Positions 3,641-53,534 of a stretch of 64,000 nucleotides of DNA are shown in pieces. Source of the stretch: Pontibacter sp. FD36 (GTDB taxonomy: Bacteria > Bacteroidota > Bacteroidia > Cytophagales > Hymenobacteraceae); NCBI RefSeq assembly GCF_015686655.1, contig NZ_JADPMP010000011.1:62001-126000 (forward strand), given 5' to 3'. Each line of letters starts with the position of its first letter. The first letter of the stretch is position 1. Under the pieces are notes generated by a model. It was not told the DNA's origin. It did no database searches and saw only the letters and a list, made by a program, of their open reading frames with translations. A program made the position numbers and the translations under genes.

Positions 3641-4393
3641 TTATTGGCGACGCTTACGCTTAGGAGCTCCGTCAGTTTTCTTGCGATCACCACGGCCTCT
3701 TCTATCGCCACCCTGTGCACCTGCTCCACCTTTGGTATCCATGTCTGCATTCGGAGTAAGGTCTTTTTTACCGTAAACCTCTCCTTTGAAGATCCATACT
3801 TTGATACCTAGCTTACCATATACAGTCTGAGCTTCAGACAATGCATAATCGATATCAGCACGAAGTGTGTGCAGAGGAGTTCTGCCTTCTTTATAGTGCT
3901 CAGTTCTTGCCATTTCAGCACCGCCTAGACGACCTGAAACCTGAACTTTGATACCTTCAGCACCAACACGCAGCGCAGAAGCAATAGCCTGCTTCATCGC
4001 ACGACGGAAAGAGATACGGGCCTGCAGCTGCTGAGCGATAGACTCACCTACCAGCTTTGCATCAAGCTCTGGACGCTTAATTTCAAAAATGTTGATCTGA
4101 ACATCTTTATTAGTAAGTTTCTTAAGCTCTTCCTTGATCTTATCTACTTCCTGTCCGCCTTTACCGATTACTACACCAGGTCTGGCAGTGTTGATAGTGA
4201 TAGTGATGCGCTTTAGGGTTCTTTCAATGATAATTTTAGAAATACCACCTTTAGGAATACGCGCTAAAATATACTTTCTGATTTTCTCGTCTTCAACCAG
4301 TTTCTCAGCGAAATCTTTGCCACCATACCAGTTAGAATCCCAACCTTTGATAACTCCTAGGCGAAAACCGATCGGATTTACTTTCTGTCCCAT
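3641..4393 (-). CDS. rpsC: 30S ribosomal protein S3
   Basis: The start is taken at the ATG at 4393-4391, giving 250 residues beginning [13 protein letters not shown], the invariant S3 start. A longer frame would run back into rplV. The KH domain follows ([16 protein letters not shown], about residues 60-75), then the C-terminal domain with [21 protein letters not shown]3 lines the mRNA entry channel. An extra Gly/Arg/Lys-rich tail of roughly 35 residues ([12 protein letters not shown]) extends the C-terminus. Confidence 0.97.
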
Positions 4394-4397
4394 GTTC

Positions 4398-4793
4398 TTA
4401 CTTATTGGCTTTTTTAGATTTCTTTGATTGCTGTTGCTCAAGTTGCTCTTCAGTCATGCTGTCTATTACAAGAGTCACATGATTAGATCTTTTTCTGATT
4501 CTGTAACCACGGCCCTGTGGTGCAGGACGCAGACGCTTCAGCATCTTACCTTCATCTACAAAGATCTCTTTGATATAAAGATTGGCATCTTCTATGCGAG
4601 CATCTTCATTCTTCTGCTGCCAGTTAGAAAGAGCTGATAAAAGGAGCTTTTCAATTCTTGCAGCACCTGAGTTTGCTTCGAATTTCAATAATCCAAGGGC
4701 TTTGTTCACGCTCTTGCCGCGTACCAGACCCGCTACTAATCGCATTTTGCGAGGAGAAGTAGGTACGTTTTTAAGTCTTGCTACTGCTTCCAT
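4398..4793 (-). CDS. rplV: 50S ribosomal protein L22
   Basis: The start at 4793 gives [19 protein letters not shown], the proper L22 N-terminus; upstream in-frame codons lie inside rpsS. The protein is 131 residues and contains the tunnel-lining loop region [19 protein letters not shown]22 forms a constriction of the exit tunnel with L4. The tail [13 protein letters not shown] is a lysine-rich extension. The start overlaps the rpsS stop region by a few bases or less, suggesting coupled translation. Confidence 0.96.
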
Positions 4794-4794
4794 T

Positions 4795-5073
4795 TTATCG
4801 CTTGCCTTTATCTTTTTTAGCAATATGACCTCTAAAGTTTCTGGTTGGGGCAAACTCTCCAAGTTTGTGACCTACCATGTTCTCAGTCACATAAACAGGA
4901 ATGAATTTATTTCCGTTATGAACTGCGAATGTGTGACCTACGAAATCCGGAGAAATCATGGATCTGCGTGACCAAGTCTTGATAACAGTCTTCTTACCAG
5001 ACTCGTTCATCACGTCTACTTTCTTCTCGAGCCTATAGTCAATATAAGGCCCTTTTTTTAATGATCTAGCCAT
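4795..5073 (-). CDS. rpsS: 30S ribosomal protein S19
   Basis: A 92-residue protein starting [19 protein letters not shown] with the conserved block [20 protein letters not shown] and [13 protein letters not shown]19 binds 16S rRNA in the 30S head together with S13. It lies 3 bp after the rplB stop and adjoins rplV. Length matches the family. Confidence 0.98.
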
Positions 5074-5076
5074 TTA

Positions 5077-5901
5077 CTATTTCTTTCCTCTATTAACTAT
5101 AAGTTTCTCAGAATGCTTTTTCTTGCTGCGTGTCTTAAGACCTTTTGCCAGCAAGCCTTTGCGTGAACGTGGGTGACCGCCAGATGACTTACCTTCACCA
5201 CCACCCATAGGGTGATCAACAGGGTTCATGGCAACACCACGTACTCTTGGACGCTTACCTAACCATCTGTTACGACCGGCCTTACCGATCTTAACATTCA
5301 TATGATCAGAGTTAGAAACTGTTCCTACAGTTGCGTAGCAATTTACAAGCACCATGCGAAGTTCACCAGATGGCAACTTGATAGTTGCATAGCGACCTTC
5401 TCTTGCAACCAGCTGTGCATAAGAACCTGCGCTTCTGGCAAGTGTTGCACCTTGGCCAGGCTGCAATTCGATGTTGTGAATGATAGTACCTAGAGGAATG
5501 TCAGATAAAGGAAGACAGTTACCTACTTCTGGTGCATTACCTGGTCCTGAAACTATCTCAGTTCCCACCTGGATTCCAGATGGAGCAATGATATAGCTTT
5601 TCTCACCGTCTGCATAATAAAGCAGGGCAATACGAGCGGTTCTGTTTGGATCGTACTCGATTGTTTTAACCGTAGCTGGCACACCGTGCTTCGTACGCTT
5701 AAAGTCAATCACTCTGTACTTCTGCTTATGACCACCGCCCATATAGCGCATAGTCATTTTACCTGAGTTGTTGCGTCCACCAGATTTTTTACTAGGTGCC
5801 AACAAAGATTTCTCTGGAGTAGCCGTCGTGATCTCATCGAACGCTGGCGCTACACGGAATCTTTGACCTGGTGTTGTTGGTCTTAACTTCTTTAAAGCCA
5901 T
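5077..5901 (-). CDS. rplB: 50S ribosomal protein L2
   Basis: A 274-residue protein with the L2 signatures [20 protein letters not shown] near residue 40 and [20 protein letters not shown] near residue 225, the latter carrying the conserved histidine next to the peptidyl transferase centre. L2 is required for peptide-bond formation and subunit joining. It lies 10 bp after rplW and 3 bp before rpsS. Length is normal. Confidence 0.98.
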
Positions 5902-45705: not shown

Positions 45706-46305
45706 TTATTTCTTGCGACTGACCCACTTGTTGTCTTTCAGCCAGAAGCGCCAGGGTAGCAGCGCATCTTCACCGGCATAGTCTATACCTACTCGTGGGC
45801 CGATGGCTATACCTTCAGCAGGCACGGCTATATCTTTGTCTTCTATCCAGATGGTGTCGCCGATGAGTGTTTCGCCATAGTGACTGCGGTTTATACCTAA
45901 GGCAATGCTGAGCACACCCGGCCCGGCCGTCAGGTTAGGTTTGGGAGTGGCCATGTTGCGGCGCAGCAGCATCTCTTCTATACCTTCTGTCGGTTCGATG
46001 GCCCGCACCAGCACGGCATCGGCCTGCCCTTCCACGTTGGTAATGATGTTGAACAGGTTGTACATGCCATACACGAGGTATACATAAGCCACCCCGCCCT
46101 CGTGGTACATGATTTCGGTGCGCTGTGTGCGGCGGTTCATATGCGCATGGCAAGCCTTGTCGTTTGTGCCGGAGTATGCCTCCGTTTCCACAATGATGCC
46201 TCCGGTGAGGATGCCGTCGTGGTGTGTGTAGAGGTACTTACCCAGCAGGTCCTGTGCCACCTGCACCACATCCGGTCGGGTATAAAAGTCTTTTCTGAGC
46301 TTCAC
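45706..46305 (-). CDS. DNA-3-methyladenine glycosylase (AAG/MPG family)
   Basis: A 199-residue protein from a GTG start (MKLRKDFYTRPDVVQVAQDL) with the AAG active-site segment IIVETEAYSGTNDKACHAHM, whose first Glu activates water, and AYVYLVYGMYNLFNII. It removes alkylated purines such as 3-methyladenine as the first step of base-excision repair. It is convergent with the MG2/TonB-plug gene (stop codons 1 bp apart) and divergent from the B12 operon across a repeat-rich spacer. Confidence 0.95.
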   Translation of the reverse strand: MKLRKDFYTRPDVVQVAQDLLGKYLYTHHDGILTGGIIVETEAYSGTNDKACHAHMNRRTQRTEIMYHEGGVAYVYLVYGMYNLFNIITNVEGQADAVLVRAIEPTEGIEEMLLRRNMATPKPNLTAGPGVLSIALGINRSHYGETLIGDTIWIEDKDIAVPAEGIAIGPRVGIDYAGEDALLPWRFWLKDNKWVSRKK

Positions 46306-46323
46306 TTTGTAATGGATAATGAT

Positions 46324-46371
46324 GAATGAGTAATGACGAATGAGTAATGAATAATAAGCAATGAGTAATGA
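46324..46371. repeat. Degenerate tandem repeat of an AATGAGTAATGA unit
   Basis: Three near-identical 13-bp units, (G/C)AATGAGTAATGA, begin at 46324, 46338 and 46359, embedded in similar AT-rich sequence up to about 46390. They lie in the spacer between the glycosylase gene and the B12 operon. Confidence 0.8.
46331..46358. repeat. Left arm of a 28-bp inverted repeat
   Basis: The reverse complement of this stretch matches 46524-46551 in 26 of 28 positions. The arms are 165 bp apart and flank the divergent spacer; the right arm ends 2 bp before the -33 element of the B12 promoter. Confidence 0.8.
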
Positions 46372-46523
46372 CGGATGAATGAATAAATATTTAATTCATA
46401 CCTACCTGTAAGCAAATAATGAACAGGTATACGTGAAACAGGCTCATCGGCCAATCCCTTATCCTCACCTTATTATTAGTTATCATATGCTATTCACTAA
46501 ATCTGATTGCTAATTCGTCATTA

Positions 46524-46551
46524 CTTATTAATCATTACTCATTCGCCATTA
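46524..46551. repeat. Right arm of the 28-bp inverted repeat
   Basis: It begins CTTATTAATCATTACTCATT and pairs with the reverse complement of 46331-46358 with two mismatches. It adjoins the promoter at 46553. Confidence 0.8.
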
Positions 46552-46552
46552 C

Positions 46553-46581
46553 TTGTTTCTTCATTAAAACAATTACCTTTG
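46553..46581 (+). promoter_or_regulatory. Promoter of the cobalamin uptake operon
   Basis: TTG, 18 bp, TACCTTTG. The predicted start near 46588 is the 5' edge of the B12 riboswitch, so promoter and riboswitch fit together exactly. Confidence 0.75.
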
Positions 46582-46587
46582 CCTTCA

Positions 46588-46770
46588 GATTGGTGGCCTT
46601 GTCGTTTTCGCGACAAAGCCTTAAAAGGGAAATAGGTGAGATACCTATGCTGTTCCCGCAACTGTGATCTTCTTAAAAAGGGTTAGCCAAAACCACCGCC
46701 ACTGTGCCGCACAACGCACGGGAAGGCTGGCTAACCTGAAGAGAGCCAGGAGACCTGCCAGTCCGACAAT
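46588..46770 (+). ncRNA. Cobalamin riboswitch
   Basis: The RNA has the conserved core AAAAGGGAAATAGGTGAGA, then CCCGCAACTGTGA, then GCCACTGTG and GGGAAGGCTGGCTAACC, and the B12 box AGCCAGGAGACCTGCC near 46744-46759. This is the order of the adenosylcobalamin riboswitch class. It precedes the BtuB-like receptor gene by about 110 nt and presumably shuts it down when cobalamin is plentiful. How it does so (translation or termination) is not decided; no clear terminator follows. Confidence 0.93.
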
Positions 46771-46879
46771 AATTAGTCGTATGCTTTCGGGTAAAAAGCT
46801 GCACGGCCTTCGCTATACCTGCGCGCGCTGTTCCTGCCTATACCTGCCTGCATGCTTCGGGATTTAAGCAAGCGTATAC

Positions 46880-48793
46880 GTGGCAAAGTTTCACTACCCT
46901 CTTCTATCATGCCTGGCTCTACTGCTAGGTATAGCGCCCGTCGCTCTGGCGCAGCAGGATACTACGGTGTATCACTTGCGCACAGTCGAAATCTTTGGCA
47001 AGCCCTCCGAAGTGTTTGCCTCTGGCAGCCGCGTAAGCACACTCGACAGCAGTTTCATCCGCACCTATGCCTCCGGCACCATAGCGGATGCCTTGCAGGC
47101 CCGCACACCGGTATTTCTGAAAACGAACGGTGCTAGCGGCATTTCCACCCCTTCCTTCCGGGGCACCAGCGCTACACATACTGCCGTGCTTTGGAACGGC
47201 CTCAACATCAGTCAGCCAGCCTTGGGGCAGAGTGACCTGTCTTTGTTGCCTTTGAGCAGTATCGGGAGCATTGCGGTGCAGCATGGTGCGGCAGGTGCTA
47301 TGTATGGCAGTGGCGCGATCGGTGGGGCTGTTTTGCTCAACTCCCCAACCCAGCAAGAGCCCGGCTTTGGAGCAGATGTGATGCAGGAGGTTGGCAGCTT
47401 CGGCCGGTACTTCTCCAGCGCAGGCGTCCGCTACAGCAGCCAGAAGCTTTCTGTCGCACTGAGTGCCTATCGTCTGGCAGCAGAAAACGACTACTCTTTC
47501 CGGGACTACGGCCGTATTGGAGCACCGGTTCGTCGACAGGACCAGGCGCAGGTAGCACAGCATGGCTTCACCCAGGACCTGAGCTGGCAGCTCTCTTCCA
47601 ATACCCGGCTTGCTTTGCATGGCTGGTATACCTTTGCCGACCGGGAAGTAGCTCCTGCGCTGGGCGCTGCCAACACCAATGCCGAACAACTCGACCGGAA
47701 CCTGCGCCTGATGACGGAATTGAACCACAGCAGCAACTGGGGCGAAACCTCCGTGAAAGCGGCCGTGTTCAACGATTACCTTCGATTCACTGACAACAAC
47801 AACTACTCTACCACTGATATCAACACTTACCAGGTGCAGGCCGAGCAGACCTATACCTATGCCCGCCGCTGGAGTTTGCGGGGCGGCCTTAATCTGCAGC
47901 ACTTTGACGCCGATGTACAAGGCTATGGCAAACAAGTAACGGAAGACCGCGCTTCGGCTTTCCTGCTCTTCCGCTACGACCCCAGCGAGCGGCTCGACCT
48001 GAGCCTGAACTTGCGCCAGGCATTTGTGAAAGGCTACAACCCCACTCCGGCGCCCACCCTGGGCGCTAACTGGCTGATGCTGCAGCAGGGTAATCACAAG
48101 CTATACCTGAAGGGCAACGTGTCGGGCAGTTACCGGGTGCCGACGCTGAACGAGCGCTTCTGGCAGCCAGGTGGCAATCCGGACATCAAACCGGAGCAGG
48201 GCTGGAGTTACGAAACCGGACTGCGTCACCGCTATACCTTGGGCAGTGTGCAGTTGGATTCTGAATTATCGGTTTACCGCATGCTCGTGGACAACTGGAT
48301 ACAATGGATGCCGATTACTTCCAGCTATTGGTCTCCCCGCAACCTGCAGAAGGTTCGCTCACAGGGTATAGAACTCAGCAGCCGTGCTAGTACCATAATA
48401 GGCGACTGGCAACTGGCTGCTACGGGCGCCTATACCTATACCTCCTCCGAGCAGGTAAAGGCCTACGAAGGAAACCAGGAGTTGAACCAACAGCTTGCGC
48501 ACGTGCCATTGCACAAAGCCCAATTGGGGGCTGACCTTACCTTCCGCTCCTGGACGTTACTCGGCAACATCACGCACACCGGCCTCCGCTATACCGACAA
48601 CAGCAACACTGGCAGCCTGCCCGGCTATACCTTGCTTAGCCTGGCACTGCACAGGAAGTTCAGCATCGGTCAGTATCAGTTTGTTACATCGGTCCGCAGC
48701 GATAATGTAACCGACCGCGAGTATACCGTGCTCGAAAACGTGCCTATGCCATCCCGCAGCTTTGCGGCCAGCCTGCGCTTTATCATACCTTAA
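46880..48793 (+). CDS. btuB: TonB-dependent cobalamin receptor, BtuB-like
   Basis: A 637-residue outer-membrane receptor from a GTG start with a signal peptide (FHYPLLSCLALLLGIAPVAL). A plug domain follows (SFRGTSATHTAVLWNGLNIS; GAMYGSGAIGGAVLL, about 90-150), then a 22-strand-type barrel ending in ASLRFIIP. It imports cobalamin using energy from TonB. The riboswitch upstream and the BtuG-like gene 22 bp downstream give the substrate; the plug alone would not. It contains at least seven copies of the TATACCT/AGGTATA word. Confidence 0.9.
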   Translation: MAKFHYPLLSCLALLLGIAPVALAQQDTTVYHLRTVEIFGKPSEVFASGSRVSTLDSSFIRTYASGTIADALQARTPVFLKTNGASGISTPSFRGTSATHTAVLWNGLNISQPALGQSDLSLLPLSSIGSIAVQHGAAGAMYGSGAIGGAVLLNSPTQQEPGFGADVMQEVGSFGRYFSSAGVRYSSQKLSVALSAYRLAAENDYSFRDYGRIGAPVRRQDQAQVAQHGFTQDLSWQLSSNTRLALHGWYTFADREVAPALGAANTNAEQLDRNLRLMTELNHSSNWGETSVKAAVFNDYLRFTDNNNYSTTDINTYQVQAEQTYTYARRWSLRGGLNLQHFDADVQGYGKQVTEDRASAFLLFRYDPSERLDLSLNLRQAFVKGYNPTPAPTLGANWLMLQQGNHKLYLKGNVSGSYRVPTLNERFWQPGGNPDIKPEQGWSYETGLRHRYTLGSVQLDSELSVYRMLVDNWIQWMPITSSYWSPRNLQKVRSQGIELSSRASTIIGDWQLAATGAYTYTSSEQVKAYEGNQELNQQLAHVPLHKAQLGADLTFRSWTLLGNITHTGLRYTDNSNTGSLPGYTLLSLALHRKFSIGQYQFVTSVRSDNVTDREYTVLENVPMPSRSFAASLRFIIP

Positions 48794-48815
48794 ATTATAT
48801 ACATACCCCAATAAC

Positions 48816-49943
48816 ATGAAAAAAATTACCCGCTTCCGCAGCTACCTACTGTCAGCTGCCTTTGCCTTTGGTGCGCTCACTATCACTTCCTGCGACAAAA
48901 AGGACAACGGGCCTGCCGGTGAGTACGCCCGCAATGGTGTCCTTGTGTCCAATGAAGGCGCCATGACCAAATCAAATGCCTCGATGAGCTTCTACAGCCA
49001 CGACAGCAAAACAGTGGAGAACGAATCGTTTAAGAAGGTGAATGCTCCGCTTCTGCTCGGCGACGTGTTGCAGCACATGGTGCAGCATGGCGACAGGCTA
49101 TACCTGGTGATGAACAACAGCGGCAAGGTGGTAGTCACTAACGCCCATACCCTGAAAGCGGAAGGCGAGATCGCCGGTTTGGAGGCGCCCCGTTACTTTG
49201 CGGCCCTGAACGATGATAAAGCTTATGTAACGGAGTGGCTTGGCTACGATCCGGCGACTTATGTATATGGCAACGGCCGAGTAGCAGTAGTGGATCTCAA
49301 TACGTTGACCGTTACCAAAACAATCACTGTAGGCGTGCAACCGGAGCAACTTATCCTTCAAGGTGGAAAGCTCTACGTAGCCAACAGCGGTGGCAACTCT
49401 GTAACGGTGATCAACACGGCTACTGACGCGATAGAAACTTCTATCACCGTAAACGACGGCCCGAGCAGCCTGGCACTGGACCGTAACAACATGCTTTGGG
49501 TAAGTAGCCGAGGCATCAAGTCTTATGACCCAACCGACTGGTCTGTCAGCGAAGAACACAGCACTCCCGGCTCCCTTGCCAAGATCAATACAGGTAGCAA
49601 TTCGGTAGCCGCGACACTCACCTTCACCAGAAATGCGCCATCTCCAGACAAGCTCACGCCAAATCAGGGCGGAGACAAAATCTACTATGTGTTCAACAAC
49701 AAGGTATGGGTGCAGGATGTCAACACGACTACACTGGCCACTCAACCACTCATCGACCGTGGCAGCTATGTAGCTTATGGCTTCAACGGCCTGGGTGTGG
49801 AACCTGGCAGCGGCACGATTTACGCAGGCAAGGCGACAGACTATGCCTCCAACGGTTGGGTGGTGCGCTACAACCCACAGAGCGGAGCAGCTGTAGACTC
49901 CTTTAGGGTTGGTATTGCCCCGAACGGTTTTGTGTTCAAATAA
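48816..49943 (+). CDS. BtuG-like surface cobalamin-binding lipoprotein
   Basis: 375 residues from the ATG at 48816. A lipoprotein signal (MKKITRFRSYLLSAAFAFGA ... TITSC) is followed by a YncE-like beta-propeller (GRVAVVDLNTLTVTKTITVG, YVANSGGNSVTVINTATDA). BtuG of Bacteroides is a propeller lipoprotein that caps BtuB and binds B12 with extreme affinity. The fold, lipid anchor and position directly behind a riboswitch-controlled btuB match that. Binding itself is inferred, and no other DUF could be assigned by eye. Confidence 0.85.
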   Translation: MKKITRFRSYLLSAAFAFGALTITSCDKKDNGPAGEYARNGVLVSNEGAMTKSNASMSFYSHDSKTVENESFKKVNAPLLLGDVLQHMVQHGDRLYLVMNNSGKVVVTNAHTLKAEGEIAGLEAPRYFAALNDDKAYVTEWLGYDPATYVYGNGRVAVVDLNTLTVTKTITVGVQPEQLILQGGKLYVANSGGNSVTVINTATDAIETSITVNDGPSSLALDRNNMLWVSSRGIKSYDPTDWSVSEEHSTPGSLAKINTGSNSVAATLTFTRNAPSPDKLTPNQGGDKIYYVFNNKVWVQDVNTTTLATQPLIDRGSYVAYGFNGLGVEPGSGTIYAGKATDYASNGWVVRYNPQSGAAVDSFRVGIAPNGFVFK

Positions 49944-49959
49944 TTAATCTGCTATCCCC

Positions 49960-50010
49960 AAAAGCACAATGCCCGGTCCTCTTATCTAGAGAGCCGGGCA
50001 TTGTGCTTTT
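49960..50010. terminator. Bidirectional terminator after the BtuG-like gene
   Basis: A perfect 17-bp stem (AAAAGCACAATGCCCGG and its complement) around a 17-nt loop with A- and T-runs at the ends. It lies between the B12 operon (+) and a small lipoprotein gene (-). Confidence 0.85.
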
Positions 50011-51329: not shown

Positions 51330-53534
51330 TTGAAGAAGCCAACCATACTGCTCATTACGCCGCCGCTCACGCAGCTCAACACACCATACCCCGCCACTGC
51401 CTACATCAAGGGCTTTCTGAAAGGGCAGGGCTATACCGTTACCCAGGCTGACTTTGGCATTGAGCTGGTGCTGCGCATGTTTTCGAGAGATGGACTAAGC
51501 AGAATATTTGAGGCTGTAGAAAAGGGGGATTTTGAGTTGTCGGATAACAGCCGACGCATCCTGCGACTCAGGAGGGAGTACCTGAACACTATAGAGCCAG
51601 TCATCCGTTTTCTGCAGAACAAAGACACTACCCTGGCTCAGCAAATAAGCTACAGCCGTTACCTGCCCGAGGCTTCACGCTTCGACCAGGTAGAGGACAT
51701 TGACTGGGCTTTTGGCAGCATGGGCATCACCGACCGCGCCCGTTACCTGGCTACGCTATACCTAGAGGATCTGGGTGACCTTATTAAAGAAACCATCTGC
51801 CCCTATTTCGCTTTTAGCCGCTACGCCGAGAAACTGGCCTTGTCGGCCACTTCCTTTGACCCGATGGAGGAGTCGCTGCAGACGGAGCCAAACCTGGTAG
51901 ACCAGATGCTGCTCGAGCTGCTGGAAGAGCGCCTGCAGGAAGTGCAGCCGGATGTGGTCGGCTTCTCTATACCTTTCCCGGGGAACCTGTATGGTGGTTT
52001 GAGGCTGGCACAGTATATCAAGCAGCACCATCCGCACATCCATACGATGATGGGCGGTGGCTATCCAAATACAGAGCTGCGAAGCCTCCGCGAGCCGCGC
52101 CTGTTCAAATACATCGACTTTGTAACGCTGGATGACGGCGAAGGCCCTTGGCTGAAACTGCTGGAATACTTGCAGGGCGAGCGCCAGGTTGATTTTCTGC
52201 AGCGCACATTCATGCTACAGGATGGAAAGGTAGAGTTTATCAACGGCTGCCTCGACAAAGATATTCCGCACACTGAGGTGGGAACGCCGGACTACAGCGA
52301 TTTGCCACTGCAGGATTACCTGTCCGTGATCGACGTGATCAACCCGATGCACCGCCTCTGGAGCGACGGCCGCTGGAACAAGCTAACGGTGGCCCACGGC
52401 TGCTACTGGAAACGCTGCTCCTTCTGCGACATCACGCTCGACTATATTTCCCGCTATGAAACGGCCCCGGCTACTTTGCTGGTGGATCGCATCGAGCAGA
52501 TCATCGCCCAGACGGGCCAGACGGGATTTCACTTCGTGGACGAAGCAGCGCCGCCAGCCGCCCTCCGCGACCTGGCCATTGAACTGCTACGCCGCGGTGT
52601 GAAGATTACCTGGTGGGGCAACATCCGGTTTGAGAAAACCTTCACACCCGACCTCTGCCGTCTGCTGGCCGCGTCAGGTTGCATAGCTGTGTCGGGTGGT
52701 TTGGAAGTGGCATCTGACCGACTGTTGGATTTGATGAAAAAAGGTGTGAGCATTGCGCAGGTGGCACGTGTAACGGACGGCTTCACACAAGCTGGTATCA
52801 TGGTACATGCCTACCTCATGTATGGCTTCCCAACGCAGACAGCACAGGAAACGATTGATTCGCTGGAAGTGGTGCGGCAGCTTTTCCTAAACGGCGTGAT
52901 ACAATCCGGCTACTGGCACCGCTTCAGTATGACGGCGCATAGCCCGGTGGGTAAGCACCCTGAGAAATTTGGTGTGGTGAAAGTAGGCCCGCCGGAAGGT
53001 GACTTTGCCAACAACGACCTTTGGCACGATGACCCGCAGGGAACCGACCACGAGCTGTTCGGCCAGGGTTTAGCGAAAGCCATCTACAATTATATGCATG
53101 GTGTGGGACTGGAAGAGCCACTCTCGTTCTGGTTCGATTTCAAAGTGCCGCGTGTCACCACCGACCGCAACCTGATCGCCAAGGCGATCCAAGAGCCTGC
53201 CAAACCAGACAGCGAACGCAAGCTGGCCCGTGTATTCTGGCTCGGTAACGTGCCCGAAATCGACTTTATGATGTATGCCAAAAAGGGCCAGACCATCGAA
53301 CGCTGCGTGCTGACTTTTTACGAAAAAGCCGAAGACTTCCAGATCAAAACTACAGCCAACATTGGGCAATGGCTGCTGGAGCAACTCACGCTGCTGACTT
53401 CTGAAGATGCTCCGGCTATGACACTGAAGCAACTGGAAGAAACTTACCCACTGGACGCACACCTGAACTTCACAGAGTTCCTGGCGTCTCCTGTTTGGTT
53501 TGAGTTGCGCGAGAAAGGATTGCTGTTGCTGTAA
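51330..53534 (+). CDS. B12-binding radical SAM protein
   Basis: A 734-residue protein from a TTG start (MKKPTILLITPPLTQLNTPY). A cobalamin-binding-type Rossmann part comes first (DVVGFSIPFPGNLYGGLRLA ... GGGYPNTELRS, about 210-245). The radical SAM barrel carries C358, C363 and C366, a CX4CX2C cluster motif (HGCYWKRCSFCD) instead of the usual CX3CX2C. No DxHxxG cobalamin motif is seen. Its substrate is unknown; enzymes with this plan often methylate or rearrange inert carbons. A B12-uptake operon lies 1.4 kb upstream. Confidence 0.88.
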   Translation: MKKPTILLITPPLTQLNTPYPATAYIKGFLKGQGYTVTQADFGIELVLRMFSRDGLSRIFEAVEKGDFELSDNSRRILRLRREYLNTIEPVIRFLQNKDTTLAQQISYSRYLPEASRFDQVEDIDWAFGSMGITDRARYLATLYLEDLGDLIKETICPYFAFSRYAEKLALSATSFDPMEESLQTEPNLVDQMLLELLEERLQEVQPDVVGFSIPFPGNLYGGLRLAQYIKQHHPHIHTMMGGGYPNTELRSLREPRLFKYIDFVTLDDGEGPWLKLLEYLQGERQVDFLQRTFMLQDGKVEFINGCLDKDIPHTEVGTPDYSDLPLQDYLSVIDVINPMHRLWSDGRWNKLTVAHGCYWKRCSFCDITLDYISRYETAPATLLVDRIEQIIAQTGQTGFHFVDEAAPPAALRDLAIELLRRGVKITWWGNIRFEKTFTPDLCRLLAASGCIAVSGGLEVASDRLLDLMKKGVSIAQVARVTDGFTQAGIMVHAYLMYGFPTQTAQETIDSLEVVRQLFLNGVIQSGYWHRFSMTAHSPVGKHPEKFGVVKVGPPEGDFANNDLWHDDPQGTDHELFGQGLAKAIYNYMHGVGLEEPLSFWFDFKVPRVTTDRNLIAKAIQEPAKPDSERKLARVFWLGNVPEIDFMMYAKKGQTIERCVLTFYEKAEDFQIKTTANIGQWLLEQLTLLTSEDAPAMTLKQLEETYPLDAHLNFTEFLASPVWFELREKGLLLL

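Follow-up and report, generated by a model that had tools for sequence, protein, structure and literature searches.

A cobalamin riboswitch in front of a BtuB-BtuG type gene pair in Pontibacter sp. FD36

This report concerns a gene pair at positions 46553-49943 of a 64,000-nucleotide stretch of DNA from Pontibacter sp. FD36 (contig NZ_JADPMP010000011.1), the whole of which is called the window here. The order of the elements is a Bacteroidota promoter, a cobalamin riboswitch, a gene for a BtuB-type receptor and a gene for a BtuG-type lipoprotein, and we consider it very probable that together they form a B12-responsive two-gene operon for the capture of cobamides at the outer membrane. That the pair belongs to the BtuB-BtuG family and stands behind a cobalamin riboswitch is supported by the sequence, the predicted structure, the gene order and the EL8 loop of the receptor. 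Chance matches are unlikely, the E values being 6e-24 for the riboswitch, 6e-65 for the receptor against BtuB3 of Bacteroides thetaiotaomicron and 5e-41 for the lipoprotein against BtuG3. As a member of a known system, met here outside Bacteroides, the unit is ordinary, and it is set apart by the detail of its leader and by a difference in the ligand pocket. The initial annotation of this DNA had called it a complete uptake unit; the promoter, the riboswitch, BtuB and BtuG are indeed present, but there is no BtuFCD at the locus and genes resembling BtuFC are found on other contigs. The features of the unit are as follows (ORF, open reading frame).

46553-46555, + strand: candidate -33 element TTG, 33 bases before the predicted start at 46586
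46574-46581, + strand: -7 promoter box TACCTTTG, which fits the consensus TAnnTTTG
46588-46763, + strand: aptamer, P1 to P1 (RF00174 alignment)
46653-46658, + strand: L5 loop UUCCCG (RF00174 alignment)
46783-46799, + strand: hairpin H1 (P13/L13-type), CGGG loop complementary to L5
46853-46870, + strand: hairpin H2, loop CGGGA, ending 9 nt before the btuB GTG
46880-48793, + strand: btuB-type TonB-dependent receptor ORF, 637 aa, GTG start
48296-48355, + strand: EL8 loop WIQWMPITSSYWSPRNLQKV, tip Trp484 at 48329-48331, aligned with the BtuB3 Tyr538 loop
48816-49943, + strand: btuG-type seven-bladed propeller lipoprotein ORF, 375 aa
49960-50010, + strand: inverted repeat, possible terminator, arms 49960-49982/49988-50010 of 23 nt, 91% complementary, 5 nt apart, TTTT end

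The riboswitch, the receptor and the lipoprotein

The RF00174 match at 46574-46776 (+) scored 100.4 bits (gathering score 31.5; E 6.2e-24) and covered model positions 1-189, which is the whole model, and thus the earlier call of a cobalamin riboswitch is borne out. It was the sole RF00174 match in the 4.84-Mb assembly. In the P1 stem GATTGG (46588-46593) pairs with CCAGTC (46758-46763), and L5 reads UUCCCG, the L5 consensus in cobalamin riboswitches being UCCCG (PMC10653944). A riboswitch-led TonB receptor has been published for Flavobacterium psychrophilum, and the same source places the -7 box of the Bacteroidota sigma-A, TAnnTTTG, at -12 to -5 (PMC9723704). When the box found here is placed in this way, the predicted transcription start is at about 46586, two bases 5' of P1, and some 12 bases at the 5' end of the Rfam match belong to the promoter and not to the RNA. 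Because of this the remark that the promoter start falls at the riboswitch edge turned out to be exact. The TA and TT of the -7 box were invariant in 29 of 29 aligned leaders. The -33 TTG was present here and in the nearest relative, and in the same alignment it was, by eye, not kept in most relatives. A sigma-70 scan gave three sites compared to 3.0 expected and is uninformative for Bacteroidota.

The gap between the two genes is 22 bp, and the ORFs at 46880-48793 and 48816-49943 agree with what had been noted earlier, a TonB receptor followed at this distance by a propeller lipoprotein. The receptor has the Pfam domains Plug and TonB_dep_Rec_b-barrel. Its top solved relatives by phmmer were BtuB3, BtuB2 and BtuB1 of B. 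thetaiotaomicron (E 6e-65 to 1e-20), in the order 8p97_A (E 6.4e-65), 8p98, 8bmx and 8blw, and E. coli BtuB matched with E 9e-12. In the published system the EL8 loop of BtuB frees B12 from BtuG, the tip of this loop is Tyr538 in BtuB3, and deletion of EL8 stops growth on B12 (PMC10404256). The corresponding column, Trp484 in Pontibacter, had an aromatic residue in 94 of 112 rows and a non-aromatic one in the other 18. The start column of btuB alternates among GTG, TTG and ATG in the aligned leaders, as judged by eye, and the assignment of the start codon looks firm; no evident Shine-Dalgarno sequence was seen, again by eye, in front of it. At two other loci the BtuB reading frame was in pieces (L070, 820-2735; L147, 2807-4966), which is either disruption or sequencing error.

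The lipoprotein matched DUF5074 in Pfam (E 9e-27), and in a phmmer search of the PDB it matched BtuG3 with E 4.7e-41 over residues 10-375, at about 32% identity, and BtuG2 (8bmx_D) with E 1e-38. Its nearest named relative, from Pontibacter lucknowensis, is 95% identical. The AlphaFold model had a pLDDT of 91.2 and a pTM of 0.87, and when it was searched with Foldseek, BtuG3 and BtuG2 with bound cobalamin ranked first. The structural comparison with BtuG that had been proposed along with the original call gave, in VIA-align, a Z of 42.7 and 1.6 Å over 309 aa for BtuG2 with cyanocobalamin (CNCbl), several BtuG2 and BtuG3 entries being tied. The best Z for a propeller that is not BtuG was 33.1, and BtuK1 of B. 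thetaiotaomicron (9s6c), which is also a B12-binding propeller, is more distant (Z 31.0, 20% identity). That the match merely reflects the common propeller fold was considered and rejected, because the scores of BtuK1 and of a YVTN surface-layer protein are far lower than those of BtuG. Homology over the whole propeller, fold, gene order and EL8 uphold the description of the lipoprotein as a propeller of the BtuG kind, and the label YncE-like given to it is weak, the NCBIfam YncE model reaching 23 bits against a cut-off of 400.

The lipidated Cys26 (48891-48893) follows LTITS and the Cys was kept in 52 of 52 rows. Directly after it is DKKD where BtuG2 has MKWD, and a role of this stretch in surface export may be supposed. 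The equivalents of Asn54, Glu55 and Gly56 were kept in 52, 51 and 52 of the 52 rows, a broader set of 43 rows had them in 40, 38 and 42, and the equivalents of Tyr239 and Tyr335 are both Tyr in this lipoprotein.

Compared to BtuB1G1, BtuB2G2 and BtuB3G3 of B. thetaiotaomicron (8blw, 8bmx and 8p97/8p98), the Pontibacter pair has the same arrangement of a TonB receptor beside a surface propeller lipoprotein, the same control by a cobalamin riboswitch, an EL8 with an aromatic tip and the same fold. Unlike these, the Pontibacter locus has two genes only, without btuFCD or further binders, its upper-ligand pocket residues are not aromatic, the identity to BtuG3 is low as given above, and the host is no gut Bacteroides.

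The leader and the proposed course of uptake

The leader resembles those RF00174 riboswitches that have an L5-L13 kissing loop, such as E. coli btuB and P. megaterium metE, in having a full aptamer, UUCCCG in L5 and a downstream CGGG hairpin. It differs from them in that there are two CGGG hairpins, the second of which is beside a start codon that shows no evident Shine-Dalgarno sequence (by eye). With L5 the loop of H1 could form four Watson-Crick pairs and that of H2 five. The hairpin scan covered 68 of 81 leaders, the other 13 being skipped as they lacked a strict aptamer box or L5 pattern. H1 was found in 28 of 28 Pontibacter leaders and both hairpins in 27, and in the one leader that failed the scan for H2 (L096) the CGGGA loop is kept and there is a G-U pair in the stem, as seen by eye. 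In the alignment of 28 Pontibacter leaders, for the extraction of which the H2 motif was demanded and none of the 28 was lost thereby, the CGGGA of H2 was invariant whereas neighbouring loop bases varied. When each Pontibacter leader was shuffled, two such hairpins were obtained in 0 to 2 per 200 shuffles. In the sister genera H1 was found in Adhaeribacter (2/2), Rufibacter (5/5) and Sabulibacter (1/1), and H2 was not found in these eight leaders. In the 32 other leaders scanned, mostly of Hymenobacter, five had a hairpin in the H1 zone, seven had a later one and none had both. In place of H2, six Rufibacter and Sabulibacter leaders (L108, L110, L111, L114, L118 and L121) seem to have a different hairpin immediately upstream of the start codon, and the changes in its arms from species to species look compensatory (by eye, uncounted).

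Computation shows the family membership, the gene order, the fold, EL8, the class of the riboswitch and the conservation of the hairpin sequences. For B12 binding and its affinity, the motion of the lid and repression and its level, we propose the following course. Transcription would begin where the aptamer has its first pair, and when cytoplasmic cobamide is low the btuBG mRNA would be translated. BtuG on the outer face would bind the corrinoid in its propeller and act as the lid of BtuB. Closure of the lid would push EL8 into the BtuG pocket so that the vitamin drops to BtuB, TonB would drive it into the periplasm and the BtuFC-like ABC (ATP-binding cassette) genes elsewhere would complete uptake. 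When cobamide is plentiful the aptamer would bind it, L5 would kiss a CGGG hairpin and expression would fall. Control is most likely exerted at the initiation of translation because H2 is just before a start codon without an evident Shine-Dalgarno sequence. We infer both the sign and the level of control by this leader; the fold energies do not yield the sign of regulation. The Pontibacter leader is a simple test case for riboswitch control of initiation without a Shine-Dalgarno sequence.

Distribution and alternative explanations

The Cytophagales host had been considered worth remarking upon, but in the family sampled such a host is the rule and no surprise. Among 150 genomes of the family DUF5074 matched in 136 (133 above cut-off) and RF00174 in all 150, and among 158 genomes of the phylum DUF5074 matched in 64 (54 above cut-off) and RF00174 in 155. 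When the 50 DUF5074 rows of the phylum sample with E <= 1.5e-6 were examined, at least 37, from at least 14 family labels, were downstream of a riboswitch on the same strand and within 6 kb (median 2,058 bp); four riboswitch-linked rows were less than 400 bp away, which leaves no room for btuB. A profile of 31 BtuG sequences matched 89 of the 158 phylum genomes at 1e-8, the weaker rows being often a partial propeller, and gave no match at this level in 69. In the best 74 profile rows (E <= 1.4e-30) at least 48 were riboswitch-linked, in at least 45 of 69 genomes and at least 18 family labels, and at least 38 had room for btuB. The riboswitch rows set against these 74 were a hand-picked subset of those listed, and the linkage counts are lower bounds; alignment A1 includes rows from genomes of the same phylum sample. 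We also examined 40 loci that were chosen for a DUF5074 match and, in the phylum half, for a nearby riboswitch as well; both genes were present in 36, BtuG only in three and neither in one. In 80 named loci found by BtuG similarity a BtuB-like ORF was upstream in 76, as read from the listing, and by strict tests the spacing was found in 68 and the aptamer box in 57.

In the articles covered BtuG is handled as a trait of gut Bacteroides. It has been surveyed in 313 gut genomes, called exclusive to Bacteroidetes and seen as a response to the competition that prevails in the crowded gut (Wexler et al., PMC6143338), and a soil study used the gut BtuG protein as a reagent (PMC11287211). In our literature search, which was of open-licence articles and mainly of titles and abstract openings, no report of BtuG outside the gut was found. 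Pontibacter, Hymenobacter, Rufibacter and Adhaeribacter, the family members named here, are environmental genera. That the parts are usual among relatives suggests a system that is not peculiar to the gut, and a riboswitch-led BtuBG throughout the family argues for the lid as the earlier trait and for extreme affinity, if it is specific to the gut, as a later one. In Rufibacter and Sabulibacter a second BtuG-like propeller follows btuG (L108, 6143-7282; L110, 6138-7280; L114, 6065-7228; L118, 6222-7292). In one genome with the same genus label as the window (locus L067 of G023) a second and far more typical DUF5074 protein, with 289 bits compared to 114 in the next genome, is at 4101-5426 (-) beside a divergent BtuBG and was perhaps acquired.

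Several results weigh against the account given here and have to be set beside it, the first of them concerning the identity of the two proteins. The receptor reached 102.2 of 599.7 bits with TIGR01779 and 67.1 of 836 bits with PRK10641, both proteobacterial BtuB models, and as these cut-offs were failed by far it is not filed as the proteobacterial BtuB equivalog. DUF5074 alone is unspecific, as the control genomes of E. coli and Methanosarcina gave matches to it too, the lipoprotein is also matched by models of the YVTN repeat and of other propellers, and in four of the 40 loci no BtuB-like ORF was found, one of them being without BtuG as well. Residues W194, W272 and Y316, which narrow the upper-ligand cavity of BtuG2 (PMC10404256), are Ser, Ser and Asn here. 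The unspecific models and these three residues could be explained by a general surface propeller of the YVTN/YncE type that happens to follow a TonB receptor and binds a ligand other than a corrinoid, for example a siderophore or a quinone. This is, however, very improbable considering that a cobalamin riboswitch stands in front of the genes, that the nearest relatives of known structure are entries of BtuG and of BtuB-BtuG, that EL8 is kept and that the linkage to the riboswitch extends across many family labels. What the small side chains leave more room for is a genuine BtuBG whose lid binds corrinoid only weakly, in the nano- to micromolar range, or favours bulky upper ligands such as adenosyl, and which is not a scavenger with the femtomolar binding published for BtuG2 (PMC6143338). 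Among the 43 aligned rows W194 is Trp in BtuG3 only and Y316 is Tyr in 34, and since the three positions vary in this way they do not define the family. BtuG3 was solved with CNCbl bound although it has Ala at 272, the corrin is hydrogen-bonded by blades 1-4 (PMC10404256), and the NEG loop, which is near the beginning of the propeller, has been retained; a weak or bulky-ligand lid therefore appears to us possible and the less likely case. The pocket difference may affect the affinity and the preference for the upper ligand.

The other results on this side concern the leader. Neither for nor against the stems of H1 and H2 was any covariation found, because these stems hardly vary. In the RNAalifold consensus both CGGG stretches were paired elsewhere, and in minimum folds at least part of the CGGG was paired in 28 of 28 sequences for H1 and in 27 of 28 for H2, which implies that without ligand the proposed hairpins are less stable than the alternative fold. 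Keeping both CGGG stretches unpaired costs 7.7 kcal/mol on average, which would be in keeping with a switch whose hairpins are paid for by the ligand and the kissing contact, as has been described for P13 and the ribosome binding site hairpin of other cobalamin riboswitches (PMC10653944). The lack of covariation would also agree with a riboswitch acting at transcription, by termination or Rho, and not at the start codon, H2 then being a spacer or an RNA-stability hairpin, and in the literature searched no test of a cobalamin expression platform of Bacteroidota was apparent. On the other hand, the terminator pattern scan reported no site between the aptamer and btuB, although the same scan overlooked the repeat at 49960, and it is the CGGGA of H2, so near the start codon, that is invariant while adjacent loop bases vary. 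Control at transcription is thus to be regarded as the minor possibility beside control at initiation.

Returning to the B12-responsive operon, we offer one further suggestion, and only tentatively. The single Pontibacter aptamer may serve a pair of L13-type hairpins. Of these the one near P1, which the sister genera share, would be the older, and the other, which matches better (CGGGA-UCCCG), is directly before a start codon without Shine-Dalgarno sequence, so that L5 would latch the start site; together with the spread of BtuG through much of the phylum, this would make the femtomolar scavenger of the gut a late tuning of an old system. No report of a double L13 was found in the literature search.

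Genome context and neighbouring sequence

Only two TP-methylase matches were found in the genome, which, judged from the known pathway, are too few for de novo corrin synthesis, and the genome seems unable to make B12. There were six matches to the B12-binding domain, five of them above cut-off, in ORFs that include ones of the size of MetH and of methylmalonyl-CoA mutase (names guessed from size). The three FecCD matches were all on other contigs, two of them behind a gene for a substrate-binding protein. These two ABC loci scored 86 and 42 bits with the BtuF model and at best 216 and 229 bits with BtuC models, all below cut-off. The operon as a complete import system was rejected on account of the location of these matches and the single riboswitch match in the genome, and the unit in the window is the outer-membrane half of uptake.

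Based on its sequence the inverted repeat at 49960-50010 probably closes the two-gene unit. The terminator pattern scan did not list it, probably because the T run is inside the stem. Just downstream, at 51330-53534, is a radical S-adenosylmethionine (SAM) protein with a B12-binding domain (PF04055 and PF02310), for which the top NCBIfam model, below cut-off, was a C-methyltransferase of ribosomally synthesized and post-translationally modified peptides (RiPP). This gene was considered as part of the unit and rejected since the strong inverted repeat sets it apart. Upstream and divergent from the btuB unit is a DNA-3-methyladenine glycosylase gene (45706-46305, - strand). The gap before the promoter has degenerate 7-bp tandem repeats (GTAATGA / TCATTAC) at 46309-46371 and 46518-46554, and by eye CATTACT-rich text also precedes the riboswitch in several relatives.

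The word TATACCT/AGGTATA was found 73 times in the window on both strands, for example at 46814, 46839, 47852, 48431 and 48437, compared to 5.0 expected. Inside ORFs there were 56 of the 73 compared to 58.3 expected, and the frames were uneven. In the genome CTATACCTG had 1003 + 1000 copies compared to 8 + 17 for the reversed control, and in the genus it was found 2,104 to 2,518 times in three genomes, 1,073 times in a fourth and 100 to 218 times in the other eight searched. It is a dispersed, HIP1-like word of one Pontibacter clade, and no account of it was found in the literature search. In the window it was sparse over 1-24000 (5 copies) and then occurred 6, 15, 20, 15 and 11 times per 8 kb over 24001-64000, an uneven density that might mark acquired or differently selected DNA.

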